Source: Arenibacter latericius DSM 15913
GTDB lineage: Bacteria; Bacteroidota; Bacteroidia; Flavobacteriales; Flavobacteriaceae
Reading direction: 5' to 3'
Length of the DNA stretch: 64,000 nucleotides
Assembly (NCBI RefSeq): GCF_000424985.1
Contig: NZ_AUKX01000023.1
Location: forward strand, 1 to 64,000
Part shown: positions 37,460 to 54,746 of the stretch, piece after piece
Position numbering within the stretch: position 1 is the first letter of the stretch
Layout of the letters: each line of letters opens with the position of its first letter
The notes under the pieces: model-generated
What the model was told of the DNA's origin: nothing
The model's input: the letters and a program-made list of their open reading frames with translations, nothing else
Databases searched by the model: none
Translations under genes and position numbers: made by a program

Positions 37460-37473
37460 GGATAAATTTGTCC
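37460..37473. promoter_or_regulatory. Candidate Rrf2 operator O1, over the -33 box
   Basis: GGATAAATTTGTCC is a dyad with a single unmatched pair and sits in the extended context AATTAGGA...TGTCC. It covers the TTTG (-33) element of the rrf2 promoter. The same GTCC-based palindrome occurs upstream of the nos operon at 56043-56056. Confidence 0.55.
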
Positions 37474-37520: not shown

Positions 37521-37955
37521 ATGTTTTCTAAAGCTTGTGAATACGGTATAAAAGCAACAATATTTATTGCGCAAAAGTCCTTACACAAGACTCGTGTTAG
37601 TCTTAAGGAAATTGCAGCTGAAATTGGTTCTCCTGAAGCCTTTACTGCCAAAATCTTACAGTCTCTTGCTAGAAACGGCTTGGTGGAGTCGCACAAAGGT
37701 CCTACTGGAGGTTTTGAAATGGATAGGGCTAAGATGGATACCTTAAAATTATATGATATCGTAAATGCCATAGACGGAGATAATATTTTTGTTGGTTGCG
37801 GATTAGGCTTAAAACATTGTGACGCCAATAAACCCTGTCCCGTTCACGATAAATTTGTAGGAATAAGAGAAAATCTTACCCATATGCTAAAGAGCACTAC
37901 CATGTATGAATTGGCATCGGGGCTAGATATTGGACTGACACAGTTAAAAAGATAA
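37521..37955 (+). CDS. Rrf2-family transcriptional regulator with a three-Cys cluster motif (NsrR/IscR-like)
   Basis: The 144-residue protein has an N-terminal winged helix (residues about 1-60, with the recognition helix near EIAAEIGSPEAFTAKILQSL) and a C-terminal loop with Cys 93, 100 and 106 (C-x6-C-x5-C). That spacing is close to the Fe-S ligands of NsrR (C-x7-C-x5-C in Bacillus) and IscR, so a cluster-based NO or redox sensor is likely. It is the first gene of a run into the cbb3-like oxidase and NO-related genes, 72 bp before the CcoN-like gene, and its own promoter carries matching dyads. NO sensing is inferred. Confidence 0.88.
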   Translation: MFSKACEYGIKATIFIAQKSLHKTRVSLKEIAAEIGSPEAFTAKILQSLARNGLVESHKGPTGGFEMDRAKMDTLKLYDIVNAIDGDNIFVGCGLGLKHCDANKPCPVHDKFVGIRENLTHMLKSTTMYELASGLDIGLTQLKR

Positions 37956-38027: not shown

Positions 38028-39833
38028 ATGAATAATAAACGCTCACTTATAACAGTACTAACGCTACTTTTGCCAATTCTCCTATTTCCACAAAACGCCG
38101 ATATCAACACTGATAATTGGATAACGAGTCCAGGAATTATTGGAACAATTGTGCTTATTCTTATCGTATTCTTAGTTGCTATTATTATACTATTAGCAAA
38201 ATTAAACACCTATGTAGATACCTATAAGTGGAAGCAACTACAAAAGAAAGATTTAGAATTTTCTGAAGAGATAATCGGCATGCGGGAAGATGAAATAGAT
38301 CGTATTTTAGAAGGCCGAAAAAAGGCACTTAACTACAAATTATCAGGAGACGAATTAGGGAGTCAGCGAGCGGTTAAAGACCAAAAAGGATTAATAAACA
38401 TGGTAACACATGAGCCAGAAAACCCCATGTTTGATGAGAAAAAAAACACTCCCATTGCATTAGAAACTCCAGAACCAATAAAGAAAATTGTAATTTATTA
38501 TTTAGGAGCTGCAGTTTTCTGGTTAGTATTTGGAACCCTTATAGGTCAATATGTTGGTATGAAATTCGTATGGCCAGAAATGGACAGTCAGCCATGGCTT
38601 TCTTTTGGTCGCCTCCGCCCAGTACATACTAACGCGGTTTTTTGGGGGTGGGCTTCTTTAGCGATGATTGGCCTGGGTTATTTTGTAATTGCCCGTACTT
38701 CAAATACTGTTATCTACAATTACAAAAGCGCGTGGTATTCATTAATCCTTATAAACCTCGCAGTACTTTTAGGCAGCCTCTCATTAATGGCGGGTGTCAA
38801 TAATGGAGGTGGGGAATATAGAGAATACATATGGCCAGTAATGCTACTTTTTGCGATTGCCATTATTGTAACATTTTGGAATTTTTACAAAACGGTTGCA
38901 ACTAGAAAAATTAAAGATATATACGTATCCAATTGGTATATTCTAGCTGCATTAATATGGACTACTGTTTTGGCAATTATTGGGTATTTACCCAATTTTC
39001 AGGATGGGCTGGGAGAAACCGTGATTCAAGGTTACTACATGCACCAAGGAGTAGGTATGTGGTTTATGACCTTTACTCTTGGTTTAATATACTATTATCT
39101 TCCTTCTTCACTTAACAAGCCTATATATTCTTACTCTTTGGGAGTATTAGCTTTTTGGACACAAATGTTGTTCTATACTATGATTGGGACACACCATTTT
39201 GTGTTTAGCCCTCTTCCCTGGTGGTTACAGACTACCGCCATAGTATTTAGTGCCGGGATGTTTATTCCTGTTGTGGCGGGTACTACCAACTTTTTAATGA
39301 CGATGAAAGGAAGCTGGAATCATATATCCAAGAGTTACGTACTACCATTCTTTTTAGTAGGCGTTATTTTTTACTTTGTAGGTTCTACCCAAGGAAGTTT
39401 ACAGGCTTTCAGGTTTACCAACTACGTATGGCATTTCACAGATTTTAACGTGGCTCATTCCCATATGACCATGTATGGAATTATCACCTTTATCCTCTGG
39501 GCCTGTTTTTACACAATTTTACCAAAATTAACGGGAAAAGAACCCCCTCAGGTTTTTGTTGGTGCCCATTTCTGGTTAGCATTTATAGGGTTATTCGCCT
39601 ATATGATGTCTTTAATGGCAGGAGGCACCTTAAAAGGGTTAAGCTGGATTGATGGCAATGCTTTTTTAGAGTCTGTTATTTTAATGAAACCATACTGGGT
39701 ATGGCGTGCTATTGGTGGTTCCCTAATGTTTGTCTCGCACCTGGTTTTTGCCTATAACTTTTATTACATGGTAAACAATAAGAAACCTATTGAAAATTTA
39801 GATGCTCCAGTATTAGAGCGTGTGAATAACTAA
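38028..39833 (+). CDS. cbb3-type (C-family) heme-copper oxidase subunit I, divergent, with N-terminal extension
   Basis: The 601-residue subunit I has about 12 core membrane helices starting near residue 152. Expected ligands are present: H200 (RPVHTN, low-spin heme), Y337-M-H339 (CuB His and the cross-linked Tyr of oxygen reductases), H389-H390, and H477/H479 in NVAHSHM. The Glu that follows the CuB His in cytochrome-c NO reductases is replaced by Gly 343, so oxygen reduction is favoured over NO. The first ~150 residues (signal-like helix, second helix at 36-57, charged segment) are an extension unlike ordinary CcoN and recall the start of Bacteroidota CcoP. No CcoG/S/H assembly genes are adjacent. 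Confidence 0.85.
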   Translation: MNNKRSLITVLTLLLPILLFPQNADINTDNWITSPGIIGTIVLILIVFLVAIIILLAKLNTYVDTYKWKQLQKKDLEFSEEIIGMREDEIDRILEGRKKALNYKLSGDELGSQRAVKDQKGLINMVTHEPENPMFDEKKNTPIALETPEPIKKIVIYYLGAAVFWLVFGTLIGQYVGMKFVWPEMDSQPWLSFGRLRPVHTNAVFWGWASLAMIGLGYFVIARTSNTVIYNYKSAWYSLILINLAVLLGSLSLMAGVNNGGGEYREYIWPVMLLFAIAIIVTFWNFYKTVATRKIKDIYVSNWYILAALIWTTVLAIIGYLPNFQDGLGETVIQGYYMHQGVGMWFMTFTLGLIYYYLPSSLNKPIYSYSLGVLAFWTQMLFYTMIGTHHFVFSPLPWWLQTTAIVFSAGMFIPVVAGTTNFLMTMKGSWNHISKSYVLPFFLVGVIFYFVGSTQGSLQAFRFTNYVWHFTDFNVAHSHMTMYGIITFILWACFYTILPKLTGKEPPQVFVGAHFWLAFIGLFAYMMSLMAGGTLKGLSWIDGNAFLESVILMKPYWVWRAIGGSLMFVSHLVFAYNFYYMVNNKKPIENLDAPVLERVNN

Positions 39834-39846
39834 AAACAAGAACGAA

Positions 39847-40869
39847 ATGTTTGATTTTCATAAAAACCATAAAATACTTGTCCTTGCTGCTTTTTTAGGG
39901 TTTGTAACCTTAAGCTTTATAGTTGCAGTCTTTCCTGCCTATCAGATGCAAGATGTTGAACCTCTGCCGGGTCAGGTTCAATTAACGGATGATGAAAGAA
40001 AAGGGCTTAATCTTTATATTAAAGAAGGATGTGTGGCCTGCCATACCCAACAAGTTCGGAATATAGAAATGGATAATACTTGGGGAGATCGTCCCTCTAT
40101 CCCATCCGACTATATTTTTAGTAAAGAACGAATGGATATATGGCGACAGTCACCTTCCCTTTTAGGAAGTGAAAGAACTGGGCCAGACCTTACGGATATA
40201 GGCAGAAGGCAACCTAGTGAAGCTTGGCACCTACTCCATTTATATAATCCGAGGACTGTGGTAAGAGAGTCTGTAATGCCTTCTTATCCCTGGTTATTTA
40301 AAGAGGTAGAAAGTGGTTCTGTAAAAGAGGATGATATAGTGGTAAATCTGCCTGAAGCATATGCAACACCATCTGGGAGAACGGTAATTGCTAAAGAGGA
40401 AGCCTTACAACTGGTAGCCTACTTACAATCCCTTAAGCAAGTAAAGTTACCAGACGGGCAAGTTGAAGAATTTATCCCAGCCTTAAAACAAACACAGACA
40501 GAAGGAGATAAAGCGAACCAAGGAAGTGCCAGTGCTTCTGGTATTAATGGAGCACAACTTTATAAGCAAGCCTGTGCTGTTTGTCACCAAGATAACGGAA
40601 AGGGAGTTGCTGGGGCTTTTCCTCCCTTAGCAGGAAGTCCAATTGTAAACGATGTTGACCCTGAGTTAATGATCCGGATTATTTTACAGGGTTATGATGC
40701 GCGTAGTGAATATGCAGCTATGCAGCCCTTCGCAGATCAATTATCCGATGCTGAAATAGCAGCAATTGCAAATCATGAACGTACAAGTTGGGGAAATAAT
40801 GCACCAGAGATTACGGAAGAAGATGTAAGGAAACTACGTGAATTTGTGGAGAATCAACCAAGCAACTAA
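39847..40869 (+). CDS. CcoO-like cytochrome c fused to a second cytochrome c domain (oxidase subunit II/III)
   Basis: The 340-residue protein has an N-terminal membrane anchor (residues 11-29). A CcoO-type monohaem domain follows, with CVACH at 62-66, RTGPDLTDIG and the axial Met in SVMPSYPWL. After a linker (about 215-232) comes a second class-I cytochrome c domain with CAVCH at 243-247 and MQPFADQLSDAE. It thus combines the CcoO role with one CcoP-like haem in a single chain. It starts 13 bp after the CcoN-like gene, so together they form the electron-entry and catalytic parts of one complex. No CcoP gene is present. Confidence 0.87.
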   Translation: MFDFHKNHKILVLAAFLGFVTLSFIVAVFPAYQMQDVEPLPGQVQLTDDERKGLNLYIKEGCVACHTQQVRNIEMDNTWGDRPSIPSDYIFSKERMDIWRQSPSLLGSERTGPDLTDIGRRQPSEAWHLLHLYNPRTVVRESVMPSYPWLFKEVESGSVKEDDIVVNLPEAYATPSGRTVIAKEEALQLVAYLQSLKQVKLPDGQVEEFIPALKQTQTEGDKANQGSASASGINGAQLYKQACAVCHQDNGKGVAGAFPPLAGSPIVNDVDPELMIRIILQGYDARSEYAAMQPFADQLSDAEIAAIANHERTSWGNNAPEITEEDVRKLREFVENQPSN

Positions 40870-41125: not shown

Positions 41126-41494
41126 ATGAAAAAATATTTAATCATCGTTATTCTATTTTTTGCCTATCAACCACTGATGTTGGCATGCGACCACTGTAAA
41201 GAATTACACTCCAATAATGTGGAGGAAATAACAAATGATGAAAAACCTTCAGAAAGTATGGAACCACAGCAAAACTATTTACCAAGTTTAATAACTGCAA
41301 CCCCATTTGAGGGTAGGCAATTGGCTATTACTCTGGCTAGAAAATCAATTGCAGAGATACAAACCGATCCTGAAACACGGAAAAAATTGAGATCGGATTA
41401 TGCGACGGATACACAGCAACTAATCGCTTCGGCACAAATCATCGCAATTGAATTCCAGACGATTGCCGCAGCAAATAATTATTGGAGAAAATGA
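41126..41494 (+). CDS. Exported CDxCKE-motif protein 1 (unknown function)
   Basis: The 122-residue protein starts MKKYLIIVILFFAYQPLMLA, a Sec signal or lipoprotein signal, followed at once by CDHCKE. A low-complexity acidic stretch and a helical C-terminal half (about 60-122) follow. The N-terminus is a paralogue of the next gene's. The CxxC just after cleavage could bind a metal or form a disulfide. Function unknown. Its stop overlaps the next ATG (ATGA). Confidence 0.65.
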   Translation: MKKYLIIVILFFAYQPLMLACDHCKELHSNNVEEITNDEKPSESMEPQQNYLPSLITATPFEGRQLAITLARKSIAEIQTDPETRKKLRSDYATDTQQLIASAQIIAIEFQTIAAANNYWRK

Positions 41495-41775
41495 AAAAAT
41501 ATATCGTTCTAGCAATATTATTTATTGGCTATCAACCCATCTTGATGGCCTGTGACCTATGTAAAGAGAAACAGCCCAAAGGTTTGGAAAACATAACTCA
41601 TGGTCAAGGACCTACTGGTAATGTAGATTATATAATTACTTGGTCTGCAGTTATTTTGGTAGTAATAACTCTTTTTTACAGCCTAAAATTTTTATTGCGG
41701 CCAAAAGAGAGCAATCCAGACCATATAAAGAATATTGTTTGGGATCAAAATTTTGAGGAAAATGGAGGACAATAG
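41491..41775 (+). CDS. Exported/membrane CDxCKE-motif protein 2
   Basis: The ATG at 41491 overlaps the previous stop codon; a TTG nine bases earlier is less likely. The ~94-residue protein starts MKKYIVLAILFIGYQPILMA then CDLCKE, nearly the same signal and CxxC motif as its neighbour. The rest differs: a membrane helix at about 46-65 and a short cytoplasmic tail. It could be a small accessory subunit of the oxidase (CcoQ/CcoH-like in size), but no homology is evident. The next gene overlaps it by 14 bp. Confidence 0.65.
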   Translation: MKKYIVLAILFIGYQPILMACDLCKEKQPKGLENITHGQGPTGNVDYIITWSAVILVVITLFYSLKFLLRPKESNPDHIKNIVWDQNFEENGGQ

Positions 41776-42184
41776 GATTATAAAAGTATATCTAGATGAT
41801 GAACAGCAGCCTTTTGCAGCTTTCTCACCGCCTGTAAAATTTGTATTGGATACCACCAAGATTCCAGATGGTAAGCATACTTTAAAAATCATTGCAAGAT
41901 CATCTAGCAATGTTGAAGGAGTTAGGGTTATACCATTTGAGGTACGTAATGGGCCAGCAATCTCAGTAGTAGGTCTAAGCGAAAATGAAGTAGTGGATAC
42001 TCAAATTCCTATTACTATTAACGCCTATGGTAGTGAGACCAAAGATTCATTTGTTATTAGAGGATCTGAAACCCCAAAAGCGATTCCGTCATGGGTATGG
42101 GCGCTTATTATTGCTTTTGTTGGCTTTGCCTTGTTCTATCTAATTATGTACTGGAATCCTGATCTTTATAAGTCTTTTTTCTAA
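41762..42184 (+). CDS. Ig-like domain protein with C-terminal membrane anchor
   Basis: From the ATG at 41762 the protein has 140 residues. Residues ~8-75 form a predicted beta-sandwich (YLDDEQQPFAAFSPPVKFVL, TKIPDGKHTLKIIARSSSN) similar to Ig-like accessory domains. A linker, then one membrane helix at about 110-130 (IPSWVWALIIAFVGFALFYL) and a short tail follow. It lies inside the oxidase unit, overlapping the gene before and sharing a TAATG with the globin gene after. An assembly or scaffold role for the oxidase is plausible but unproven. Confidence 0.65.
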   Translation: MEDNRIIKVYLDDEQQPFAAFSPPVKFVLDTTKIPDGKHTLKIIARSSSNVEGVRVIPFEVRNGPAISVVGLSENEVVDTQIPITINAYGSETKDSFVIRGSETPKAIPSWVWALIIAFVGFALFYLIMYWNPDLYKSFF

Positions 42185-42573
42185 TGAAACAACCGCTAGA
42201 ACATAGAACCGACATTCATCATTTGGTAGACACCTTTTATACTAAAATAAGGATGGACTCCCTGTTAGCGCCTATTTTTAATGAGGTAATCAAGGAAAAC
42301 TGGGAAATGCATTTACAGAAAATGTACTCGTTTTGGGAAACGGTACTTTTAAATAAACACACCTATTATGGTAATCCGTTTATGCCCCATGCCGACCTCC
42401 CTGTTGAAAAAATACATTTTGAAAGATGGTTATCACTCTTCAATGAAACCGTTAATGAAAATTTTGAAGGGGCAAAAGCAGAGGAAGCAAAATGGAGAGC
42501 TCAAAAAATGGCTGAAATGTTCCACCACAAAATAAGCTTATATCAAACAACAAATAATAGACCTCTGATATGA
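42184..42573 (+). CDS. Group III truncated haemoglobin (first copy)
   Basis: The 129-residue protein is a 2-on-2 globin of the group III type. FYTKIRMDSLLAPIFNE covers helix B and the CD turn, YSFWETVLLNKHTYYGNP covers helix E, and the proximal His is H78 in IHFERWLSLF. Such globins bind O2 and NO and often act in NO dioxygenation or sensing. The ATG shares its A with the preceding stop (TAATG), and the next gene overlaps by ATGA, so it is translationally coupled on both sides. Confidence 0.9.
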   Translation: MKQPLEHRTDIHHLVDTFYTKIRMDSLLAPIFNEVIKENWEMHLQKMYSFWETVLLNKHTYYGNPFMPHADLPVEKIHFERWLSLFNETVNENFEGAKAEEAKWRAQKMAEMFHHKISLYQTTNNRPLI

Positions 42574-43013
42574 AAGCATTAATAAAATCAACCATTATTC
42601 CCTCTTCCGTGTTTATATGGATAGGATTTGTAGGTGCTATAAGCTTTATGGAGGCTTGGATTAAATTCCAAGTTACCGAACTCTCCCTCCCAGTGGGACT
42701 TAAGGTAGGAAAATTAGTCTTTCATGCGTTGAATAAGGTGGAATGGACACTAGCATTAATCATACTTATTTATTTGTTTAGGACAACTGGAAAAATTATT
42801 AAATGGAGTAACCTATACTTACTCATAGCTATATTTATTTTGGTATTACAAACCATAGTGTTATTACCAATTTTAGACATTAGAGCTAATGCCATAATTG
42901 AGAATCAAAATTTACCAGAATCACATGCTCATATTTATTATGTAGCAATGGAAATAGTAAAAGTAGTAACTCTTTTTATATATGGTTTTAATTATCATAA
43001 AAACAACTCATGA
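42570..43013 (+). CDS. Four-helix membrane protein of unknown function
   Basis: The 147-residue protein has four predicted membrane helices (about 8-28, 57-75, 81-104, 121-140). Histidines (H52, H118, H120) and acidic residues near membrane faces could bind haem or metal. It loosely recalls small DUF4149-like proteins but cannot be named. It overlaps the globin gene before and the TDO homologue after, each by an ATGA junction. This indicates that the three products are made together. Confidence 0.6.
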   Translation: MKALIKSTIIPSSVFIWIGFVGAISFMEAWIKFQVTELSLPVGLKVGKLVFHALNKVEWTLALIILIYLFRTTGKIIKWSNLYLLIAIFILVLQTIVLLPILDIRANAIIENQNLPESHAHIYYVAMEIVKVVTLFIYGFNYHKNNS

Positions 43014-43942
43014 ATAATACTCTCAATAAAATAGAAGATAAATATATTGGATTAGGAGAAAATCCTGAGACCTACCTTAAGGGGCTATTACATGCCAAGC
43101 CAATTACGTATTGGGATTATATTGAGGTAGACACCCTACTCTCTCTTCAAAAACCCAGAACTAATTTTAAGGATGAGTCCATATTTATAATGTACCACCA
43201 AGTAACGGAACTCTTCCTAAAAATGATGCTGCATGAATTGGAGCAAATTGTTAACGAGAAGAAGATTACCAGTCAGTTTTTAATTGTAAAACTAGATCGA
43301 TTAATAAAATATACTTCCCTTTTAATCAACTCCTTTGATATAATGAGGACAGGGATGGATTATGATGACTACAATACCTTCCGATCTACCCTTACCCCAG
43401 CAAGCGGATTCCAATGTGCCCAGTTTAGGTTGATAGAACTGCATTGTACCTCCTTAAAGAATTTGGTGAGTAATGTCTATAAAGACCAACTTTCCCCTGG
43501 CCCCGGAATTAAAGAATGTTTCGATAAGATTTATTGGAAAGATGCAGGCATTAACCACAAAACAGGAGAAAAGACGTTGACCTTACAACTGTTCGAAGAG
43601 AAATACCACAAGAAATTTTTGAATACTGCTGAGGAATTAGCAGGTAATACTTTAGAAGATAAATTAAAGCAACTTCCCACCATCCCAGATGCCTTACGGG
43701 AAAAGCTACGCAAATTTGATCGACTTTATAATATTGAATGGCCCCTAGTCCATTTAAACACCGCTGAACATTATTTGAACGGTAAAGGGGAGAATAAGAA
43801 AGCCACTGGGGGATCTGAGTGGAAAAAATACCTACACCCAAAATATCAGCAACGTAAATTTTTCCCTTCTATGTGGACAAAGGAAGAACTGGCAAATTGG
43901 GGAACTAACGTTAAAAGCGAACACCATGGAAGTATTGACTAA
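43010..43942 (+). CDS. Tryptophan 2,3-dioxygenase family haem protein
   Basis: The 310-residue protein has the all-helical TDO fold. Family features are TYWDYIEVDTLLSLQKP, the FIMYHQVTELFLK segment with the distal His 63, and the SGFQCAQFRLIE segment with the carboxylate-binding Arg 140. The C-terminal VHLNTAEHYL has the likely proximal haem His 248, and TGGSE matches the substrate loop. Canonical TDO opens the tryptophan indole ring with O2. Here no other kynurenine gene is near, and the gene is coupled to a globin, a membrane protein and a cupin in an NO-related operon. A different or NO-linked substrate is therefore possible. Confidence 0.82.
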   Translation: MNNTLNKIEDKYIGLGENPETYLKGLLHAKPITYWDYIEVDTLLSLQKPRTNFKDESIFIMYHQVTELFLKMMLHELEQIVNEKKITSQFLIVKLDRLIKYTSLLINSFDIMRTGMDYDDYNTFRSTLTPASGFQCAQFRLIELHCTSLKNLVSNVYKDQLSPGPGIKECFDKIYWKDAGINHKTGEKTLTLQLFEEKYHKKFLNTAEELAGNTLEDKLKQLPTIPDALREKLRKFDRLYNIEWPLVHLNTAEHYLNGKGENKKATGGSEWKKYLHPKYQQRKFFPSMWTKEELANWGTNVKSEHHGSID

Positions 43943-44225
43943 ACCAGAGCTTACCCATAAAACGGTAGGTAAATCTTTAAAAATACTACAAATAACTGCT
44001 TTGGCAGGAATGGATATGCCGCTTCACCACAATACCAAAGAAACGGTAATAGTAGTACATAAGGGAGAAGCAATTTTAAAGACCCAACACAAAGAATTTG
44101 TTTTAAAAAAAGGGGCAACCCTATTGGTGCCTGCATTCATAGATCACAGCTTAAGGGTAATACAAGATTTTAATGCTGTTGCCATAATGCAAACAGAAAC
44201 TGAAATAAACTTTAATTACATATAA
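43926..44225 (+). CDS. Small cupin-domain protein
   Basis: The 99-residue single cupin has metal-site residues visible as PLHHNTKETVIVVHKGEA (His, His, Glu) and the second-motif His in PAFIDHSLRV. It overlaps the TDO homologue by 17 bp and ends the tightly overlapping string. Cupins can be metal sensors or small dioxygenases; which applies here is unknown. Confidence 0.78.
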   Translation: MEVLTKPELTHKTVGKSLKILQITALAGMDMPLHHNTKETVIVVHKGEAILKTQHKEFVLKKGATLLVPAFIDHSLRVIQDFNAVAIMQTETEINFNYI

Positions 44226-44370: not shown

Positions 44371-45096
44371 ATGAAAAATTTAATGACAAAAAACATCGGA
44401 GAAATTGTAGCGGATAATTATAGAACTGCACAAATTTTTAAAAATCATAAAATAGATTTTTGTTGTAAAGGAAATAGAACAATTATAGAAGTTGCCGAGA
44501 AAAGTAAGCTTGATGCGAATTCTCTTTTAAAAGAAATAGAAACGGTACAAAAACAAACGAATGGCGACCATATAGATTTTATGACCTGGCCCTTAGATCT
44601 GCTAGCAGATTATATTGAAAAGAAGCACCATAGGTATGTAGAAGCTCAAATACCGGTACTAAATCAGTATCTAGCTAAGCTTTGTAGGGTACATGGGGAA
44701 CGTCATCCAGAATTATTAGAGATTACACAGCATTTTAATAAATGTGCCGGGGAATTGGCCATGCACATGAAAAAAGAGGAGCTAATGGTCTTCCCTGCTG
44801 TTAGAAAAATGGTAAAAGCCAAACATACTGGAACTAAATTGGAACCCTCTAAATTAGGTAGCATCAAGAATCCTATTCAAGTGATGATGCAAGAACATGA
44901 GAATGAAGGAGACCGATTTAGACTGATAGAAGAATTAACTAATAACTATACACCTCCTGCAGATGCTTGTAACACCTATAGAGTCACTTTTTCACTGCTC
45001 CAAGAATTTGAAGAAGACCTACACAGACATATCCATTTAGAGAACAACATCCTTTTTCCAAAAGCAGAAATCTTGGAGAAGGAACTCAATGAATAA
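44371..45096 (+). CDS. ric: Iron-sulfur cluster repair di-iron protein (RIC/ScdA/YtfE)
   Basis: The 241-residue protein has the N-terminal DUF542/ScdA domain with IDFCCKGNRTI (Cys 31-32) and a C-terminal hemerythrin-like domain. Its iron ligands lie in HHRYVEAQIPVLNQYLAKL, HMKKEELMVFPAV, MMQEHENEGDRF and HIHLENNILFP. It repairs Fe-S clusters damaged by NO or oxidative stress in the cytosol. It is followed by a strong hairpin. Confidence 0.93.
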   Translation: MKNLMTKNIGEIVADNYRTAQIFKNHKIDFCCKGNRTIIEVAEKSKLDANSLLKEIETVQKQTNGDHIDFMTWPLDLLADYIEKKHHRYVEAQIPVLNQYLAKLCRVHGERHPELLEITQHFNKCAGELAMHMKKEELMVFPAVRKMVKAKHTGTKLEPSKLGSIKNPIQVMMQEHENEGDRFRLIEELTNNYTPPADACNTYRVTFSLLQEFEEDLHRHIHLENNILFPKAEILEKELNE

Positions 45097-45167: not shown

Positions 45168-45213
45168 CTAATGGCAGATGATATTACATAAGAATCCAAC
45201 CGTTACAACACAA

Positions 45214-45561
45214 ATGGGAAAAATAAGGATAAAACGAATTTATGATATTCCTAAAGAAAGTGATGGATATCGAGTTCTGGTTGATCGAATCTGGCCACGG
45301 GGAGTTAGCAAGGAATCGGCCAAGTTAGATGATTGGATAAAAGAAATTGCCCCATCGGATAAGCTTAGAAAATGGTTTGATCACGACCCTGATAAGTTTG
45401 AGGAATTTGACAAAAGATATCGAATTGAACTCCAAGAAAAAGTAGATAAACTGAAGGAGCTTAGGGAAAAATCTAAAGAAAATATCCTAACCCTTCTTTA
45501 TGGAGCAAAGGATACAGAACATAATCAGGCCATTATACTAAAAAAGGTTTTGGAAGAATAA
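45214..45561 (+). CDS. DUF488 (YeaO-like) protein
   Basis: From the ATG at 45214 the protein has 115 residues, the usual length, starting MGKIRIKRIYDIPKESDGYR. An alternative ATG at 45178 lies only ten bases after a hairpin and adds residues foreign to the family. Signatures are VLVDRIWPRGVSKESA, LRKWFDHDPDKFEEF and TLLYGAKD. YeaO-like proteins are linked to NO or nitrosative stress and to hemerythrin neighbours in several bacteria, but their reaction is unknown. Confidence 0.85.
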   Translation: MGKIRIKRIYDIPKESDGYRVLVDRIWPRGVSKESAKLDDWIKEIAPSDKLRKWFDHDPDKFEEFDKRYRIELQEKVDKLKELREKSKENILTLLYGAKDTEHNQAIILKKVLEE

Positions 45562-45642: not shown

Positions 45643-46107
45643 ATGGGACAGAAAAAGCCAATTAAAAGACATAAGGCCATGCAGCCTTTAAGCAGAGAGC
45701 ACCATCAAGGATTATTGTTGTCTTGGAAAATAAGAACAGGTATTTCTAAAGGAGTTGCCGCGGAACGAATAAAAACCTATTTAAATTGGTTTTACACCAC
45801 TCATTTGGTTCCCCATTTTGAAGCAGAGGAAAAGTTGATTTTTCCAATTTTAGGCAATGATCATGAGCTGGTAAAAAAGGCCATTGCCCAACATCGAAGA
45901 TTGGAGCGACTTTTTAATACTTCTACTGATTTAGATAGGACCATTAGCCTGATAGAAGAAGAACTAGAAGCCCATATAAGATTTGAGGAAAGGATTCTTT
46001 TCAACAAAATTCAAACTGAAGCAAACGAACAACAATTAGAAACAATAGCTAAACTTCATCCGGAATCCAAATTTACTGAGAACAGCAATGATGTATTCTG
46101 GGAATAG
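45643..46107 (+). CDS. Hemerythrin (HHE) domain protein
   Basis: The 154-residue protein has two HHE motifs: PLSREHHQGLLLSWK, HLVPHFEAEEKLIFP, then AQHRRLERLF and HIRFEERILF. They supply His and Glu ligands for a non-haem di-iron site. It is probably a cytosolic O2/NO-binding or iron-handling protein. It lies between DUF488 and a small membrane protein in the NO-response run. Confidence 0.88.
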   Translation: MGQKKPIKRHKAMQPLSREHHQGLLLSWKIRTGISKGVAAERIKTYLNWFYTTHLVPHFEAEEKLIFPILGNDHELVKKAIAQHRRLERLFNTSTDLDRTISLIEEELEAHIRFEERILFNKIQTEANEQQLETIAKLHPESKFTENSNDVFWE

Positions 46108-46119
46108 AAAACAATAAAT

Positions 46120-46413
46120 ATGAATCTCATGAAAATTTATAACGAATTACTAGCGGAATTTAAAAAAGGCCAAACCGGGTATTCTACCATTGCTATTATT
46201 GGTCAAAGTTGTATTGGCTCTGTTGCGGTAATGCTAGCCCTAAAAAACGAAATGCCAATCGCCTTAAGATTTTCTCTTGTATTAATGGTCACTATTCTAT
46301 GTATGGCCTATAATGCTGCAGTATTGGCACATTTAAAGGCTAATATTACATTTAACCTATTAATAATAAGTGTAGTCTTTAGTGTGATTACTATTGCAGC
46401 AAACCTCATTTAA
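46120..46413 (+). CDS. Small three-helix membrane protein
   Basis: The 97-residue protein (or 94 from the second Met) has three hydrophobic helices (about 21-40, 46-66, 74-96) with few charged residues. No family recognised. It follows the hemerythrin gene by 12 bp and so is probably cotranscribed. Function unknown. Confidence 0.6.
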   Translation: MNLMKIYNELLAEFKKGQTGYSTIAIIGQSCIGSVAVMLALKNEMPIALRFSLVLMVTILCMAYNAAVLAHLKANITFNLLIISVVFSVITIAANLI

Positions 46414-46464: not shown

Positions 46465-46788
46465 ATGTACACTTTAACCTATTTTGATGAATTTGGGGAC
46501 CAATGCACGGCTAATTTTCACACCAATGAATATCATAGTCTAATGGAACTCCTCTATGATAAATATATGGAGGAATGGGGCGAATGTAAAGGTAGGGCGT
46601 GGTGCGGAACCTGTCACATCAAAATATTGGAAGGCGCTATTGATAAAGAAATGGAGGAAGAAGAACAGCATACACTTTCCAAGATTGATGAAGCTACTAA
46701 AGAGAGTCGTTTAGCATGCCAGATTCCCGTAAATGCAGCCTTGAACAACCTCGTTTTTAAAATCGTTTCTGAAAACCAGTATGACTAA
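46465..46788 (+). CDS. [2Fe-2S] plant-type ferredoxin
   Basis: The 107-residue ferredoxin has cluster ligands Cys 41, 47, 50 and 85 (ECKGRAWCGTCH and RLACQIPV), giving the C-x5-C-x2-C...C arrangement of adrenodoxin-like or Isc-type ferredoxins. It could supply electrons to the globins, the RIC protein or the TDO homologue encoded in the same region. The partner is inferred. Confidence 0.9.
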   Translation: MYTLTYFDEFGDQCTANFHTNEYHSLMELLYDKYMEEWGECKGRAWCGTCHIKILEGAIDKEMEEEEQHTLSKIDEATKESRLACQIPVNAALNNLVFKIVSENQYD

Positions 46789-46983: not shown

Positions 46984-47379
46984 ATGATAACAAAAACAGA
47001 AATAAAAGAACGAAAAGACGTTAATCTTCTTGTGACTAGCTTCTATGCTAAAATTAGAAAGCATGAGGTACTAGGCCCAATTTTTAATGGAATAATTACA
47101 GACTGGGACAGCCACCTGGAGTTATTGACCGATTTTTGGGAAAGTCACCTTCTCCTTAAACGAAAATATATGGGCAACCCCATTGTAGCGCATCAGGAGG
47201 TAGATAAAAAAATGGATCATACCATTACACAGGAACATTTTGGACTATGGTTAAATGAGTGGTTTGCCACTATAGATGAACTTTTTGAGGGAGAAGTGGC
47301 ATGGATAGCCAAGAATAGAGCACGAAAAATGTCTACCATGCTATTCTTACATATTTTTCAACATAGGAGTCGCGCATAA
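46984..47379 (+). CDS. Group III truncated haemoglobin (second copy)
   Basis: The 131-residue 2-on-2 globin is a distant paralogue of the one at 42184. The layout is the same: FYAKIRKHEVLGPIFN, then LTDFWESHLLLKRKYMGNP, and the proximal His 85 in ITQEHFGLWL. It appears to have its own promoter. Two group III globins of low mutual similarity in one cluster suggest separate roles, for example NO detoxification and sensing. Confidence 0.9.
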   Translation: MITKTEIKERKDVNLLVTSFYAKIRKHEVLGPIFNGIITDWDSHLELLTDFWESHLLLKRKYMGNPIVAHQEVDKKMDHTITQEHFGLWLNEWFATIDELFEGEVAWIAKNRARKMSTMLFLHIFQHRSRA

Positions 47380-48737: not shown

Positions 48738-49520
48738 TTAAAAATCCTTTCTTTTCGATTTATATCCCAATCTCCAAACTGGGATTACGGTCCATAAAGT
48801 TAGCATAACTATAGAAATCATTAGGCCAAGATTAGTCCCGAAAAATTGTTTAAAGATTGCTCCTGTATACCCCAATAGGGCAGAAATATCCAATTTTAGT
48901 AGGATAAGGGTCCTAGAAAGATCTATAGGATTAAACATGGTGGCAATTAAAGAGAAATTATCCAAAGGGTATTTTTCAAAAACAATCAAGGACATTAAAA
49001 AGAGCCCGTCATAGATAACTGCTAGAAACAACCAAACCAATACAGCGTATCCAAATCCCTTAATTTTATTTTCATTAGAAAGGGCTATATTAAAGGCCAA
49101 TGCCGTAAAAATCATAGTTAAAAACGCTCCCGTAATTAGCAATAGGGAAAAATCCCAAATGGCATTACTTTCAAAAAGTCCATATAGCGCAAAGGGAATA
49201 CCAAGTCCCAATACCAAACTCATAGTTAATGAACCAGCAACACCAAGGTATTGTCCAAAAAATATGGACGATCGTTTAATGGGCTGAGCCAATAGCAGTT
49301 CGGTAAATTCTTTGGAATTATAGAAGTACATCACACCAAAAATGGTCCCTATCAGCGGTACCAGTACAATTATGACATTCATTAGCGTAATGACAGCTTT
49401 GGACAACTCATTGTTTAAAAACAACAATACAAAGCCTAACAGCAAATAAAAAAGGAAATACACGTAGCTCCATCGGCTGCGCATTAGATCGTAAAAGCTA
49501 TATTTTAATATTTTAATCAT
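48738..49520 (-). CDS. nosY: ABC transporter permease NosY
   Basis: The 260-residue protein has six predicted membrane helices (about 17-36, 40-62, 93-115, 124-147, 155-178, 232-252) and the ABC-2-type pattern with YNSKEFTELLLAQPIKRSSI. With NosF and NosD it forms the transporter needed for assembly of the copper sites in NosZ. Last gene of the nos operon; 5 bp after nosF. Confidence 0.92.
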   Translation of the reverse strand: MIKILKYSFYDLMRSRWSYVYFLFYLLLGFVLLFLNNELSKAVITLMNVIIVLVPLIGTIFGVMYFYNSKEFTELLLAQPIKRSSIFFGQYLGVAGSLTMSLVLGLGIPFALYGLFESNAIWDFSLLLITGAFLTMIFTALAFNIALSNENKIKGFGYAVLVWLFLAVIYDGLFLMSLIVFEKYPLDNFSLIATMFNPIDLSRTLILLKLDISALLGYTGAIFKQFFGTNLGLMISIVMLTLWTVIPVWRLGYKSKRKDF

Positions 49521-49525
49521 GATTA

Positions 49526-50224
49526 TTAGGGGGTAGATATGGCCGCAATGGCATGTTCAAAATTAGTTTGATTGGTCTTAGTCTTTAAGGCACTTATACT
49601 TCCTTTAAAATATATTTTTCCTTCCAGAAGATAGACCACCTCATCGGAAACTTCTTCTACAAACTGCATTATATGTGAGGTTATTAAAAAAGTCTTCCCT
49701 TTTCCCTTTTCCTCAAAGATGAGTTCTTTTAATCTGATGAGCGCCAATGGATCTAACCCATTGGTAGGCTCATCCAGGATAACAAGTGGACAATCGAACA
49801 TAAAGGTCAACACAATATTCACTTTCTGCTTGGTTCCTCCAGATAGGTTGCTCAATTTTTTATCTAAGAAAGGCTCCAGGCCAAATCGGGCTATAAGTTG
49901 CTCTTCGTCACTGGGCATCTGCCGTATGTCCTTTATCATCTCTATCAACTCCTTTACCCTAAGGTTACCCGGAAAATTGGCTATTTGTGGTAAATAATTA
50001 ATCTGTTGGCGGTATTTCCATTGATTTTTAATGCGGGTGTCCATTACAGATATAGAACCCTTATCCGGAATTACCATTCCTAGGACAGCTTTAATCAAGG
50101 TTGTTTTACCAGAACCATTAGGTCCTAAGACAGCAAATATATTACCACTGTGAATACTGAGGTTTAATCCCGTTAATACCGGGTTTTTTCCAAATTTTTT
50201 ATATAGGTTTTCTACCTGTATCAT
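49526..50224 (-). CDS. nosF: ABC transporter ATPase NosF
   Basis: The 232-residue ATPase has Walker A GPNGSGKTTLIKAV, signature LSGGTKQKVNI, and Walker B PLVILDEPTNGLDPLALI, followed by the switch His in FLITSHIMQ. It powers the NosDFY complex. Its ATG overlaps the nosD stop (ATGA). Confidence 0.94.
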   Translation of the reverse strand: MIQVENLYKKFGKNPVLTGLNLSIHSGNIFAVLGPNGSGKTTLIKAVLGMVIPDKGSISVMDTRIKNQWKYRQQINYLPQIANFPGNLRVKELIEMIKDIRQMPSDEEQLIARFGLEPFLDKKLSNLSGGTKQKVNIVLTFMFDCPLVILDEPTNGLDPLALIRLKELIFEEKGKGKTFLITSHIMQFVEEVSDEVVYLLEGKIYFKGSISALKTKTNQTNFEHAIAAISTP

Positions 50225-51459
50225 TTTATTCTTTTCATTAATGGTTTTGCATCAACTAAATTATCCGGAGTAAAAACCGGAGAGACCTTTTCAGAAAAAT
50301 CGATTATATCCATAAACAGACTTCGCAAAAGAATAATAGTTTCTGGAGTTCTGTTTACGATATAAGAAAATAGCTTAACAGGTCTATAGGGTATATCACC
50401 TATGCCGTTTCTATCCAAATCATAACCAGTATAATCGCTCCAATAATTCTCCTCAAATACATTGTCGTTTAGATTACTGTTATAGGCAAGGTCAAAAGAA
50501 TTAAAGAGAAAATTATTTCTGGTGATTGTATTGGTATAACAAGCCCCTCTTACTTTTATAGCCCATCCATTTCTTATAAAATCATTGTTTTTATAAACTA
50601 TTCGGTTAGAGCCTTCAATACTGATCCCTACGGTATTCTCTTCAAAGGTATTCCCAGAAATCTCAGCGTCATTAATCTCCTTTAACAAGAGGCCAAAAGA
50701 AGCTGTTCCCCAATTATTTTTAAAGGTATTCCCGTGCATGTTTATCCTTTTAGAAAACATTACCGCTACCCCTGCTCCATTACTCTCAAAAGTATTTCCC
50801 TCATAGATATCATCATTGGAAAACATAAAATGTAGCCCATAGCGCAGATTATTGGCGCTATAGTTGTTCTCAATGGTGATAAAGTCCGAAAACTCTAGAT
50901 AAATTCCATCCCTTACCTGCTGTACAGAATTATTAGCGACCATGATATGTTGCGAATGCCATAATTGAATCCCATTTCCTGAGTTGTATTCATCTTTTGC
51001 ATCTCCTATAATAGTATTATTCAGGACTTTCCCATTTTTAGACCTTTCTAAGTAGATACCAAAGAATAACCTTTCTAACTTCACATTCTGTATTACAAAA
51101 TCCTCACTTCTTATAACACGTATAGCCGCATAGTCCGAAGTATAGCTAGTGCCCACATTTTTAATATGTAAGCCATCTATGGTAACATTATTGGCTGCAA
51201 TCTGAATAATCTCACCTTGCTCTTCCCCATCAATTATGGGTTGGTCTTCCCCAATTAAGGTCAACGGCTTATCTATCCTAATATTGAACTCATTATAGGT
51301 TCCTTTTTTAATCAATATAGTATCAAAATCCGCTGCCTGAGCTATTGCTTCTTTAATAGTCTTTATTGAACATGTACTGCAGACCGTAATTGTAGAAGCC
51401 CACATATTAGTGCCAAGCAAGAGCAAAATCACATATATTAAAACATGCTTCCTCTTCAT
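50221..51459 (-). CDS. nosD: Periplasmic NosD, right-handed beta-helix protein
   Basis: The 412-residue protein has a signal peptide (residues 1-22) and a parallel beta-helix built of repeated NNT/NNY turns (IQNVKLERLFFGIYLERSKN, NGIQLWHSQHI, YLEFSDFITIENNYS). This is the NosD/CASH fold. It sits in the periplasm on NosFY and takes copper from NosL to NosZ. A terminal segment (DIPYRPVKLFSYIVNRTPE) is typical of NosD. Confidence 0.94.
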   Translation of the reverse strand: MKRKHVLIYVILLLLGTNMWASTITVCSTCSIKTIKEAIAQAADFDTILIKKGTYNEFNIRIDKPLTLIGEDQPIIDGEEQGEIIQIAANNVTIDGLHIKNVGTSYTSDYAAIRVIRSEDFVIQNVKLERLFFGIYLERSKNGKVLNNTIIGDAKDEYNSGNGIQLWHSQHIMVANNSVQQVRDGIYLEFSDFITIENNYSANNLRYGLHFMFSNDDIYEGNTFESNGAGVAVMFSKRINMHGNTFKNNWGTASFGLLLKEINDAEISGNTFEENTVGISIEGSNRIVYKNNDFIRNGWAIKVRGACYTNTITRNNFLFNSFDLAYNSNLNDNVFEENYWSDYTGYDLDRNGIGDIPYRPVKLFSYIVNRTPETIILLRSLFMDIIDFSEKVSPVFTPDNLVDAKPLMKRIK

Positions 51460-51564
51460 TGTATAATATTAAAGAATTTATAATTTCCCACTGGGGAAAT
51501 CCCATATGGTATCGCTTTATGCACTTGTTGGTTGTTGTAATTGCTAATTATATACCTCATTAAT

Positions 51565-51996
51565 TCAGTTCTCAAATCTCAGTTTTAACTGTTCCCAATT
51601 TAATTGGTCACCATCGTGAATCAGCAAAGCCTCCTCTATCCCTTCCTTTGTTCCGAAAGCTGTTAGGTACTCTCCCATGGGACTAGGTATCCCCTCACTA
51701 ATCAGATAAAATGCTTTGGTGGCATCTATTAATTTTCCAGGGTTAGAATAATCATTTGTTAAGAATAGGGCTATTTCGCTAGGATCAATATCATTTAAAT
51801 GATTCATCATACATTCCGTAGCATCAAATTTAAACGCCTTGCCCTTGTCCGTTACAATTTGAGCAGCATGTTGCCTGTCAACAATAGTCATACTACAAAA
51901 GTGGCATGCATCCGACCCGTAATCTATGGGTTGTGGTTTAATATTACATGAAGTAAATACGAGTAATAAAATAGCAGGAAGAAAATATTTTGTCAT
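51565..51996 (-). CDS. nosL: NosL copper chaperone lipoprotein
   Basis: The 143-residue lipoprotein (signal ends LLLVFTSC, lipid Cys 17) has the NosL copper-binding motif CHFCSM (Cys 31, 34 and Met 36). It delivers Cu(I) to the NosDFY machinery in the periplasm. It is 105 bp upstream of nosD and 32 bp downstream of the membrane protein gene. Confidence 0.93.
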   Translation of the reverse strand: MTKYFLPAILLLVFTSCNIKPQPIDYGSDACHFCSMTIVDRQHAAQIVTDKGKAFKFDATECMMNHLNDIDPSEIALFLTNDYSNPGKLIDATKAFYLISEGIPSPMGEYLTAFGTKEGIEEALLIHDGDQLNWEQLKLRFEN

Positions 51997-52028
51997 TCTT
52001 TATATCTTAAAATTAATAGGCTGTTCTT

Positions 52029-52676
52029 TTAATTGGTTTCACTATTCACTTTTATGCTATTCCTTTTCCAACCAAAATAGGAAGCAACTAAAGTAAGTAG
52101 CATTCCAACAAACAACAGATAGCCACCAACACCTGGTAAAGAGGTAACATTAAAATTCAAAATTTTAGCATTTCCTAATAAGGGCGGTTTATAGGTCATA
52201 GGAGTACCATCAGGATGGGTCAGCTTCATAATGGCTCGCGGATCTAAATCAGTTCCATAATCCGTCATCCATGCATTAAAATCATACATTCCTAAAAGCC
52301 CCAGAACAGACATCAGCACAAACCATCCAACAAACCATTTATAAGAAACCTTGCCAAACAATCCAAGAAGTCCTATGAGTACGCCAAGAAAAACCATTCC
52401 TCCCACGACCAAAGGGAAAGTGCTAAACTCCCACATTTCATCTGGTTTAGGTAAGGTCTTCATCCCAATATAGTGATTTAACCCATCTATGTTCTGAATA
52501 TCAAATTCCTGTACTCCCCTAATCCCGTTAATATGGATATTCATTCCCAAAGGCTCCGGATACTGAGGTGCCCCTAGCATAATATTCCATAGCGGAAATA
52601 CAAAGAGTCCCAATAACAACAGTGAGCCAATAATCATTAATATACTTGCTTTTTTCATCTCTTTTCTTGATTTCAA
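52029..52676 (-). CDS. nos-operon membrane protein, function unknown
   Basis: The 215-residue protein has four predicted membrane helices (about 11-33, 87-107, 113-131, 182-205) and a periplasmic segment with INGIRGVQEFDIQNIDGLNH then YIGMK. That segment, rich in GLNHYIGM, is similar to a small domain seen beside NosL in Bacteroidota nos operons. It lies between nosZ and nosL. A role in copper delivery or NosZ maturation is inferred from position. The start may be the second Met (52658). Confidence 0.75.
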   Translation of the reverse strand: MKSRKEMKKASILMIIGSLLLLGLFVFPLWNIMLGAPQYPEPLGMNIHINGIRGVQEFDIQNIDGLNHYIGMKTLPKPDEMWEFSTFPLVVGGMVFLGVLIGLLGLFGKVSYKWFVGWFVLMSVLGLLGMYDFNAWMTDYGTDLDPRAIMKLTHPDGTPMTYKPPLLGNAKILNFNVTSLPGVGGYLLFVGMLLTLVASYFGWKRNSIKVNSETN

Positions 52677-52784
52677 TACTAAATTGAAAATGGTATTAGT
52701 TGGCTAATCTTAATCCTAATTTGTTAAAAAAGCGGGCAGTCCTTAAACATCGCCCGCTTTCCTTCTAAACTAAAATAAGTAACT

Positions 52785-54746
52785 CTAATCTTCCCCTAGG
52801 GACCAACTCAATTCCAAGTCGGAATCTGCTGGTGAAACCCTTACATAACCTTGCATTTCTTGGTGAAGTGCAGAACAGAAATCCGTACAGTAGAATGGCC
52901 AGACACCTACTTTTTTAGGCTCCCATAATAGTGTTTTGGTCTGCCCTGGCACAATCAATAATTCCGCATTTGTAGCACCGATCATAGCAAAGCCGTGAGG
53001 GACATCAAAATCTTGCTCTTGATTAGTTATATGGAAATACACCTTGTCTCCCACTTTTATACCCTCTATATTATCTGGGGTAAAGTGACTACGGATAGTA
53101 GACATATAGATATGTACATCTTTTCCGTCTCTTTCTATCTTGGTATCGTTTGCTGTTAAAGCAGCATAGGGATGTTTATTCTCAGAAAGTTTAAATATCT
53201 TTTTAGAATTAGCTATCAATTTTTCTGCTGGTATCCCTGCTGCATAATGTGGTTCCCCATGAGTTGGGAAATCATATAGCAATTCCATTTTATCCCCAGA
53301 AATATCATACAACTGAGCAGAGTGTTCCATCTCTGGACCTACTGGAAGATACCTATCCTTGGTAATCTTATTCATGGAGATATAATATTTACCAAATGGT
53401 TTTTGGGAATTTCCTCCGGGAATCATTCCATGTCCTACAGAATAATAAGAAGGTTGTCTGTCTAATACTTCCCAGGTACCTAATTTCCATTTTACCACCT
53501 CAGAAGAGATAAAGAAAGTAGTATAGGCGTTTCCTTTTCCATCAAACTCGGTATGTAACGGCCCAAGACCAGGCTGGGAAACTACTCCCGCAAGAACATC
53601 TTCGAACTTTAAAATAGGAATTCCATAAGCCTCTCCATCAAATTTTTCATTCTCAATGGCTTCCAACATTCTAGTAAAGGAATGAACTGTTAAATCTGCG
53701 GACAGCTTTCCGTTCCCTACTATATATTCCCCAGATGGATCTACATCACAACCATGTGGAGATTTAGGAGTTGGTAAGAAATAAACAGCGCCAGGTACTT
53801 TTGTTGGATCTACGGTAAGCACCTCTTTCTTCATGGTAGAAGTAGCTGTATGGGTATGATCATCATAAACGTTATGCGCATACTCGGCCGGCATTATTGT
53901 ACCACCTCCGTTGTTTACATACTCTTCTATTTTCTTCCAGTTAACCGCAGCGATAAAATCTTTATCATTTTGAGAGGAATTTACCTCCATTAAAGTACTT
54001 GCCTCCTCAGTATTATAGGTGGTAAAGAAAAACCATCCATGAGATTTCCCTCTTCCTGGATGCGATAGGTCATAATTAAACCCAGGCATCATCAATTGGA
54101 ATTTAATATCCATACGACCCGTTTTAGGGGCTACACTAATAAAAGACAAGGCACCTTTAAAATTCCCTTTATAATCTTTAATAGGCATATCTCGCTGAGG
54201 AACAGGAACTGCAAATCTAGTACCTGCTACTACATACTCTGTATTTTCTATTATGAAAGAGGAACTATGGTTACCAGCACTATTAGGCACCTCAATAATC
54301 TCTGCCGTCTCAAAAGTAGTCAGGTCAATCCTAGCTATTCTAGGGGTATTATTCCCATTGATAAAAATCCACCTTCCGTCTAACTCCCCATTTGTCTGAG
54401 AAATATCGGGGTGGTGAGCATCATCCCAAGGAACAAATCCGAAAGAAGTGTTTAGCATGGGCTTAGTTTCCTCAGAATAACCGTAACCATTTGTAGGAAA
54501 CTGGGAGAAAACTGGAATTTCTTTAAACATCCTTCCAGAAGGCAAACCGTATACGGTTAGGTTACCGGTATATCCTCCGGAGAAGAAGGCATAGAATTCG
54601 TCATACTCACCAGGAGCCACATATACACGATCTGCTGCACCAGAACTTAAGGCACCGCTAGATGCCGACTTTCCTTGGTTTCCGCAACTGGTTACTAGGG
54701 CAAAAACACCCAGCAATCCAAAAAATAAATTAATGTATTTTTTCAT
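52785..54746 (-). CDS. nosZ: Nitrous-oxide reductase, clade II, lipoprotein type
   Basis: The 653-residue enzyme reduces N2O to N2. The N-terminus is a Sec lipoprotein signal (LLGVFALVTSC, Cys 21), not the twin-Arg signal of clade I. The seven-bladed propeller has CuZ histidines such as DDAHHPDIS (H111-H112). The C-terminal cupredoxin domain has the CuA motif YCTDFCSALHQEM (C620, C624, H628, M631). The operon with FAS1, NosL, NosD, NosF and NosY matches clade II loci. Confidence 0.97.
   Translation of the reverse strand: MKKYINLFFGLLGVFALVTSCGNQGKSASSGALSSGAADRVYVAPGEYDEFYAFFSGGYTGNLTVYGLPSGRMFKEIPVFSQFPTNGYGYSEETKPMLNTSFGFVPWDDAHHPDISQTNGELDGRWIFINGNNTPRIARIDLTTFETAEIIEVPNSAGNHSSSFIIENTEYVVAGTRFAVPVPQRDMPIKDYKGNFKGALSFISVAPKTGRMDIKFQLMMPGFNYDLSHPGRGKSHGWFFFTTYNTEEASTLMEVNSSQNDKDFIAAVNWKKIEEYVNNGGGTIMPAEYAHNVYDDHTHTATSTMKKEVLTVDPTKVPGAVYFLPTPKSPHGCDVDPSGEYIVGNGKLSADLTVHSFTRMLEAIENEKFDGEAYGIPILKFEDVLAGVVSQPGLGPLHTEFDGKGNAYTTFFISSEVVKWKLGTWEVLDRQPSYYSVGHGMIPGGNSQKPFGKYYISMNKITKDRYLPVGPEMEHSAQLYDISGDKMELLYDFPTHGEPHYAAGIPAEKLIANSKKIFKLSENKHPYAALTANDTKIERDGKDVHIYMSTIRSHFTPDNIEGIKVGDKVYFHITNQEQDFDVPHGFAMIGATNAELLIVPGQTKTLLWEPKKVGVWPFYCTDFCSALHQEMQGYVRVSPADSDLELSWSLGED

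Follow-up and report, generated by a model that had tools for sequence, protein, structure and literature searches.

The 64,000-nucleotide stretch analyzed here (the window) covers positions 1 to 64,000 of contig NZ_AUKX01000023.1 of the marine bacterium Arenibacter latericius DSM 15913. On its forward strand, at 43010..43942, it encodes a homologue of tryptophan 2,3-dioxygenase (TDO) that lies within a run of genes related to nitric oxide (NO) and respiration. The homologue was assigned to a distinct clade, designated W, and is apparently a competent L-tryptophan (L-Trp) dioxygenase, as judged from the residues expected to line its pocket. The placing of such a TDO in NO-response operons is real and recurrent, and the string of overlapping genes to which it belongs is part of a recurring but modular Bacteroidota NO-response locus. 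This is a known enzyme in a new setting; no description of a TDO in a bacterial NO operon was found among the matches listed from the open-licence PMC literature, a search of abstract openings with subscription papers outside its scope.

The initial annotation had described a truncated globin, assigned there to group III, an unnamed membrane protein with four transmembrane helices (4-TM), the TDO homologue and a cupin as joined by successive overlaps, and all four overlaps are present in the window sequence, as confirmed from the open reading frames (ORFs) and their junctions. The gene for TM149, a 149-residue membrane protein (41735..42184; Pfam without significant match), ends at position 42184, which is also the ATG start of the truncated globin gene glb1 (TAATG). 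The glb1 gene (42184..42573; Pfam Bac_globin, E 1.3e-8) and the 4-TM gene (42570..43013) share an ATGA, as do the 4-TM gene and the TDO gene, and the latter overlaps the gene for a small cupin (43926..44225) by 17 bp; all of these genes are on the forward strand. The window TDO and its counterpart in A. certesii DSM 19833 share 95% identity, with the genes around it at 81-99%. Wider comparisons were made over W loci, defined as the best 80 of 340 related stretches in public genome contigs (61-95% identity). Of the 24 loci having both the globin and the 4-TM gene, 19 showed an overlap of precisely 4 bases between the two, and the 4-TM gene was located directly 5' of the TDO gene in all 31 of the 80 loci having it (the TDO start in L076 being ambiguous). 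From these two regularities, the couplings were deduced to exceed chance. The further claim that such coupling implies one function was not supported, as 4-TM, cupin and globin genes were also observed in Rrf2/NO operons lacking a TDO, and W was also observed without them. Since the 4-TM and cupin genes both occur in such TDO-less operons, the string is considered to be modular rather than an obligate four-gene unit. Random variation of the neighbors between species, which the initial annotation had named as a ground for abandoning its proposal, was not seen; the neighbors are nonrandom.

Membership of the TDO family in the wide sense was clear from the Pfam Trp_dioxygenase profile PF03301 (90 bits, cut-off 34.9; E 2.6e-25). 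On the KynA equivalog TIGR03036 the window protein scored 98.2 bits, under the cut-off of 390.7, and the second TDO copy of the same genome likewise scored 98.2 bits; the Azospirillum KynA scored 435, and the cut-off was passed by none of 296 genomes of the phylum. A TDO-family match, in a few cases weak, was obtained for 313 of 397 Flavobacteriaceae genomes. The W gene was found in 30 of the 397 (53-100% identity to the window protein, E <= 1.3e-107), and the next rows below this range were at 44-49% identity among the matches listed. In a quick maximum-likelihood tree of 102 sequences, whose two halves are separated by branches that the program flagged as long, the 48 W rows formed one group (SH-aLRT 100) within a superclade that also contains D1 and D2, the other flavobacterial TDOs, and a few further rows belonging to the same class. 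Far from W were the plasmid proteins annotated as KynA, the KynA-like proteins found in other Bacteroidota, and a longer form; two of the plasmid KynA rows (L196 and L199) adjoin kynU. A clade distinct from classical KynA was thereby supported. The initial annotation had considered that its proposal would fail if the homologue fell inside the functional KynA clade in a genome lacking another kynA. The first part was found to be half true, in that W sits in a flavobacterial TDO superclade that tracks with HAAO and does not group with classical KynA; the second was not the case, as a second TDO exists (G000:C2:105914-106885, beside a DUF3108 gene). The label "tryptophan 2,3-dioxygenase family protein" in flavobacteria therefore covers at least three clades with differing neighborhoods. 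Locus L096, from a metagenome-assembled genome (MAG) labelled Verrucomicrobia, also has the operon, with a TDO that falls among those of Bacteroidota, reflecting either mis-binning or transfer.

The active site was examined by alignment with human TDO, in which Tyr42, Tyr45, Phe72, His76, Arg144, Ser151, His328 and Thr342 align with Y34, Y37, F59, H63, R125, S132, H248 and T266 of the window protein. No substitution was seen at any of the eight heme/L-Trp positions in the 109 W rows (96 of them distinct; drawn from the 80 loci less L043 plus the 30 family genomes, organisms being partly shared), and the same eight were invariant in 25 of 25 rows of the DUF3108-linked TDOs (D). According to passages of PMC5758539, human His76, Arg144 and Thr342 hold L-Trp. 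The substrate-binding Arg (human Arg144) corresponds to R125 in FRSTLTPASGFQ. The initial annotation was correct that the distal His, the proximal His and the Arg of FQxxQxRxIE are kept, and its expectation of heme chemistry is supported by the invariant heme positions; the Arg of FQxxQxRxIE, however, is R140, a conserved residue different from the substrate-binding R125. Its suggestion of a role other than tryptophan catabolism was not sustained, given the eight positions kept throughout the 109 rows and the 14 of 30 genomes in which W is the sole TDO found, all with kynU and HAAO. Because of this invariance, a departure from tryptophan chemistry is unsupported, and W as a non-tryptophan heme protein was rejected as the principal interpretation. 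W proteins from NO settings could not be told apart from other W proteins by any position close to the active site, and the positions that differed most between the two were not among the eight checked.

The AlphaFold2 (AF2) model of W was of moderate confidence (pLDDT 77.2), with values below 50 at residues 28-44 and 129-134, which cover Y34, Y37 and S132. Foldseek returned 34 matches to this model at E 0.001, all of them TDO entries, with modest TM-scores of 0.36-0.56; one of these, 9esf, is titled IDO and its chain is named TDO. At L043:4756-5679 (A. arenosicollis), the TDO frame is split into three ORFs, corresponding to either a sequencing error or a pseudogene.

The NO/oxidase setting claimed for the window was borne out and recurs across Bacteroidota. 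At least one NO-response marker was found within 4 kb of the TDO gene, the neighborhood used unless stated otherwise, in 57 of the 80 W loci, and in 50 of the 70 for which 1.5 kb or more of flanking sequence was available on each side. The markers were globin (50 of the 80 loci), RIC (36), Rrf2 (34), 4-TM (31), hemerythrin (29), TM149 (12), hexameric tyrosine-coordinated heme protein (HTHP; 10) and nos (9). None was found within 4 kb in the 19 loci of DUF3108-linked TDO. When W loci were labelled as "NO or respiratory setting" using wider markers and 8-kb flanks, the label required 8 changes on a quick W tree compared to 23.4 with shuffled labels. The partners differ between loci. One setting joins Rrf2 with a CcoN-like oxidase, which is replaced by cytochrome bd genes before Rrf2-TDO-cupin-RIC in six loci of Arenibacter (one CydA and one CydB were checked by Pfam); cbb3 assembly genes (FixG, FixH, DsbD-like) are beside W in seven loci; and in five MAG loci nos genes, including nosZ itself in four, are followed by TDO and globin. 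A plain setting with CNNM, SurA-like, DUF488 and DUF481 genes was observed in Aequorivita and others. Beside the other flavobacterial TDO, DUF3108 was found in 18 of 19 loci (L002, L154-L173) and in the A. latericius genome, forming a conserved pair.

The presence of the kynurenine pathway was judged from TDO, kynureninase (kynU) and 3-HAO (HAAO), the last catalyzing the step before quinolinate, and NadA was taken for the aspartate route, to which it belongs. The 3-HAO family was present in 30 of 30 W genomes and likewise in all 60 of a sample of genomes whose single TDO falls outside the W range. Among genomes without a TDO match (76 of 84 screened) it was present in 2, and in none of the 49 of good quality. 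Kynureninase exceeded the cut-off score in every one of the 30 W genomes. W was the only TDO found in 14 of the 30, two of which are single-contig (G254, and G032 with a further 40-residue fragment). Since W is the sole TDO found in these genomes, all with kynU and HAAO, it is deduced that W can serve as KynA; the co-occurrence with HAAO and kynU lends indirect support to a predicted conversion of L-Trp into N-formylkynurenine. As the initial annotation had stated, the operon holds no further kynurenine gene: kynU, kynB and HAAO were absent among the window ORFs around the TDO, which is thus not in a kyn operon, and the kynU and HAAO genes of A. latericius, like its second TDO, are located elsewhere in the genome, the former two on contigs other than that of the window. 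NadA was found in 9 of the 30 W genomes and was not detected in the A. latericius genome. In that genome, the one de novo route to quinolinate that was detected thus runs through kynurenine. A second TDO was present in 12 of 16 genomes with W in an NO or respiratory setting and in 4 of 14 with W elsewhere (Fisher p 0.026, kinship uncorrected), the settings of the 30 genomes having been assigned by our judgement of gene content.

The gene run opens with an Rrf2-family regulator (37521..37955, forward strand; Pfam Rrf2, E 3.8e-25; TIGR00738, 90 bits) bearing the motif CxxxxxxCxxxxxC. The three-Cys motif, matching the three cluster-binding Cys expected of an NsrR, was present in 43 of 43 W-linked Rrf2 proteins, and PMC5411485 describes three invariant Cys as binding the cluster of ScNsrR. 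A palindrome, GGATAAATTTGTCC (37460..37473), is located 61 bp before the Rrf2 start and is proposed as a candidate operator. Palindromes of the form GGAYAN4TRTCC precede 27 of the 43 W-linked Rrf2 genes, and in 24 of the 27 they are 55-63 bp from the start; for comparison, the pattern turned up in 41 of 2150 randomly drawn 250-bp windows and, within the same loci, in 13 of the 732 sequences preceding other ORFs. A further copy was observed 32 bp before the TDO gene in L065. From its neighbors, the Rrf2 regulator is probably NO-responsive.

At E 0.1, the 4-TM protein matched nothing in Pfam or NCBIfam. Across 32 sequences of its family 20 columns are invariant, and the AF2 model shows four long helices (pLDDT 84.8), for which Foldseek gave no solved relative at E 0.001 (best E 0.35), the VIA rows being common helical bundles only. 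A bis-His heme site was rejected, as H121 alone is nearly invariant among the His residues. The gene was present in 20 of the 397 family genomes, beside W in 8 and elsewhere in 12, one of which (G203) has W on another contig. An Rrf2 gene was present within the stretch retrieved for 11 of the 12 loci away from W; the remaining one carries nos, RIC and hemerythrin genes. Four TDO-less Rrf2-4TM operons (L237, L238, L239 and L241) contain an ORF of 739-740 residues and mostly a globin; the one ORF of these that was checked, from L239, is a NorB-type NO reductase with a cytochrome c-like domain. In both loci checked, L239 and L240, the 4-TM gene is followed by one for a Cupin_2 protein. The window cupin (Cupin_2, E 2.5e-6; 27.5 bits, cut-off 27.2) has homologues in 17 of the 80 W loci. 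Because both are found in Rrf2/NO operons without a TDO, the 4-TM protein and the cupin are deduced to be NO-response members in their own right, and a family without a Pfam model thereby gains a functional setting.

To explain these observations, we hypothesized that W is a working NO-regulated TDO isozyme that would keep NAD supply going when NO hits TDO heme, an explanation that we regard as the simplest and to which we attach a little less than even confidence. The locus, the clade, the intact pocket, the co-occurrence with kynurenine genes, the recurring neighborhood and the palindrome before Rrf2 are observed, whereas NO induction, turnover of L-Trp, protection of NAD supply and any partnership with the globin or the 4-TM protein are inferred. 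Control of the TDO isozyme would have passed to a regulator of the Rrf2 type that probably responds to NO. Rising NO would cause Rrf2 to lose its Fe-S cluster and the operon to be switched on, and its products would be an alternative O2 reductase, globins, a small heme protein, RIC for Fe-S repair, hemerythrin and fresh TDO. NO would impair TDO, with which the one detected de novo quinolinate/NAD route of A. latericius begins, and the extra TDO produced together with NO-handling proteins may sustain NAD supply. Passages of PMC10220489 report that the heme and activity of human TDO fall at higher NO exposure. The arrangement suggests that Arenibacter and its many relatives with this locus may guard their NAD supply under NO attack. 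Where NAD comes solely from tryptophan, a heme- and O2-dependent first step would be a predictable weak point under NO; NO stress would be tied to cofactor supply, and an NO-regulated isozyme would represent a novel type of metabolic bypass for N2O-reducing organisms. An extended version, in which the co-translated globin and 4-TM protein shelter the heme of the NO-induced TDO at the membrane by stripping NO or bringing O2, so as to safeguard NAD synthesis, is considered unlikely. If true, it would be a bacterial mirror of the animal NO-IDO/TDO interplay, with an uncharacterized membrane family as a new NO-response component.

Several observations weigh against the NAD-sustaining isozyme. No marker was found within 4 kb in 23 of the 80 W loci. 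In 4 of the 14 W-only genomes (G080, G225, G089 and G022), the NO operon contains W and a housekeeping TDO was not found; W is thus no mere spare there. With NadA present in 9 of the 30 W genomes, NAD need not depend on TDO in these. The window Rrf2 is far under the NsrR model (27.5 bits, equivalog cut-off 182), and across the genome the palindrome is no commoner than its reversed control (23 and 25 sites, respectively); since the score is low and the motif is not enriched genome-wide, NO sensing was deduced from the neighboring genes. According to passages of PMC10220489, low NO raises TDO heme and activity in human cells. The same motif count made a genome-wide regulon search of no use, and the two genome motif sites inspected (L147 and L143) were both inside ORFs with no evident NO gene.

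An alternative that appears improbable is that the TDO makes kynurenine-derived protectants or signals, such as hydroxyanthranilate-type antioxidants, or removes O2 and tryptophan locally, thereby aiding N2O/NO respiration, with NAD not being the point. The links to nos genes (9 loci), cbb3 assembly genes (seven loci) and oxidases fit this alternative, as do the nine W genomes with NadA, but 3-HAO, which consumes hydroxyanthranilate towards quinolinate, is present in all 30 W genomes, and no exporter or branching enzyme recurs beside W among the clusters examined. That W is an ordinary housekeeping TDO lying in NO operons without a functional tie is distinctly improbable, because the markers are present at 57 of 80 W loci compared to none of the 19 D loci, the 4-base overlaps are conserved over wide divergence, and the association reappears alongside varying partners (Rrf2-CcoN, cydAB-Rrf2, nos and cbb3 assembly genes); W is, even so, also found in plain settings such as that of Aequorivita, often as the sole TDO found, and 11 family genomes have 4-TM/Rrf2 operons but no W. 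It is very unlikely that W acts chiefly on NO (by heme trapping, NO dioxygenation or nitrite chemistry with globin and HTHP) with incidental tryptophan turnover, since, although NO-response neighbors occur at 57 loci and globin, hemerythrin and HTHP are alongside, the L-Trp-binding residues are invariant in NO settings too, no position near the active site sets these W proteins apart, and W alone accompanies kynU and HAAO in 14 genomes.

Compared to known systems, W shares its family, fold and heme/L-Trp residues with classical bacterial KynA (the solved 2nox and 2nw7, and the plasmid KynA of Azospirillum and Bradyrhizobium beside kynU). It differs in being only about 24-35% identical to the plasmid-borne proteins over the matched part, in forming a separate clade, and in residing in an NO-response setting rather than among kyn genes. 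The DUF3108-linked TDOs (D1 and D2) have the superclade, the eight active-site residues and 3-HAO co-occurrence in common with W, while they are about 44-49% identical to it among the matches listed and lack NO markers in 19 loci. As in NsrR-type NO regulons (RIC, globin, NO reductase), a three-Cys Rrf2 is found here near RIC, hemerythrin and globin genes, together with an oxidase or a NorB-type reductase; the differences are an Rrf2 far under the NsrR model, TDO and 4-TM as members, and a palindrome other than the NsrR site. With the animal NO-IDO/TDO interplay, as presented in passages of PMC10220489, the common point would be that NO governs TDO function; in animals this proceeds by heme allocation to one enzyme, and for W it would presumably proceed by transcription of an extra isozyme.

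The remaining members of the run are all on the forward strand. The CcoN-like heme-copper oxidase subunit I (38028..39833) has a long N-terminal extension (COX1, E 2.1e-81; ccoN, 258 bits, under the cut-off of 583). Six His and one Tyr are present as in cbb3-type rows and are kept in 11 of 11 relatives. Because these residues are kept, the possibility that this protein is an NO reductase was rejected, O2 reduction being considered more likely. It is followed by a CcoO-like protein fused to a cytochrome c part (39847..40869; NCBIfam matches all under cut-off), and no CcoP was seen beside the pair (38028-40869). HTHP (41126..41494; Pfam, E 2.3e-33) also has an N-terminal extension, and the small membrane protein TM97 (41482..41775), without a Pfam match, is conserved with CcoN-like genes in other loci. 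Beyond the cupin are the Fe-S repair di-iron protein RIC (44371..45096; TIGR03652, 245 bits, above the cut-off of 204.7), a DUF488 protein (45178..45561; Pfam DUF488-N3i, E 9.6e-41), a hemerythrin HHE protein (45643..46107; Pfam, E 1.8e-11), the small protein TM97b (46120..46413), conserved in other loci and with no Pfam or NCBIfam match, and a 2Fe-2S ferredoxin (46465..46788; Pfam Fer2, E 5.6e-8). The run ends with glb2, a second globin-like protein (46984..47379) that clusters with glb1 by BLAST and has a Protoglobin match below threshold only. No operon statement was found in the passages of PMC4720485, which concerns truncated hemoglobins. On the opposite (reverse) strand, at 48738..54746, is the cluster of nosY, nosF, nosD, nosL, one 215-residue ORF and a Sec-dependent nosZ (TIGR04246, 930 bits; NosD, NosL and ABC proteins). 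Between the two, also on the reverse strand (47433-48656), a 407-residue membrane protein has a COX1 match below threshold (21.2 of 34.8 bits) and is conserved beside 18 of the 80 loci.

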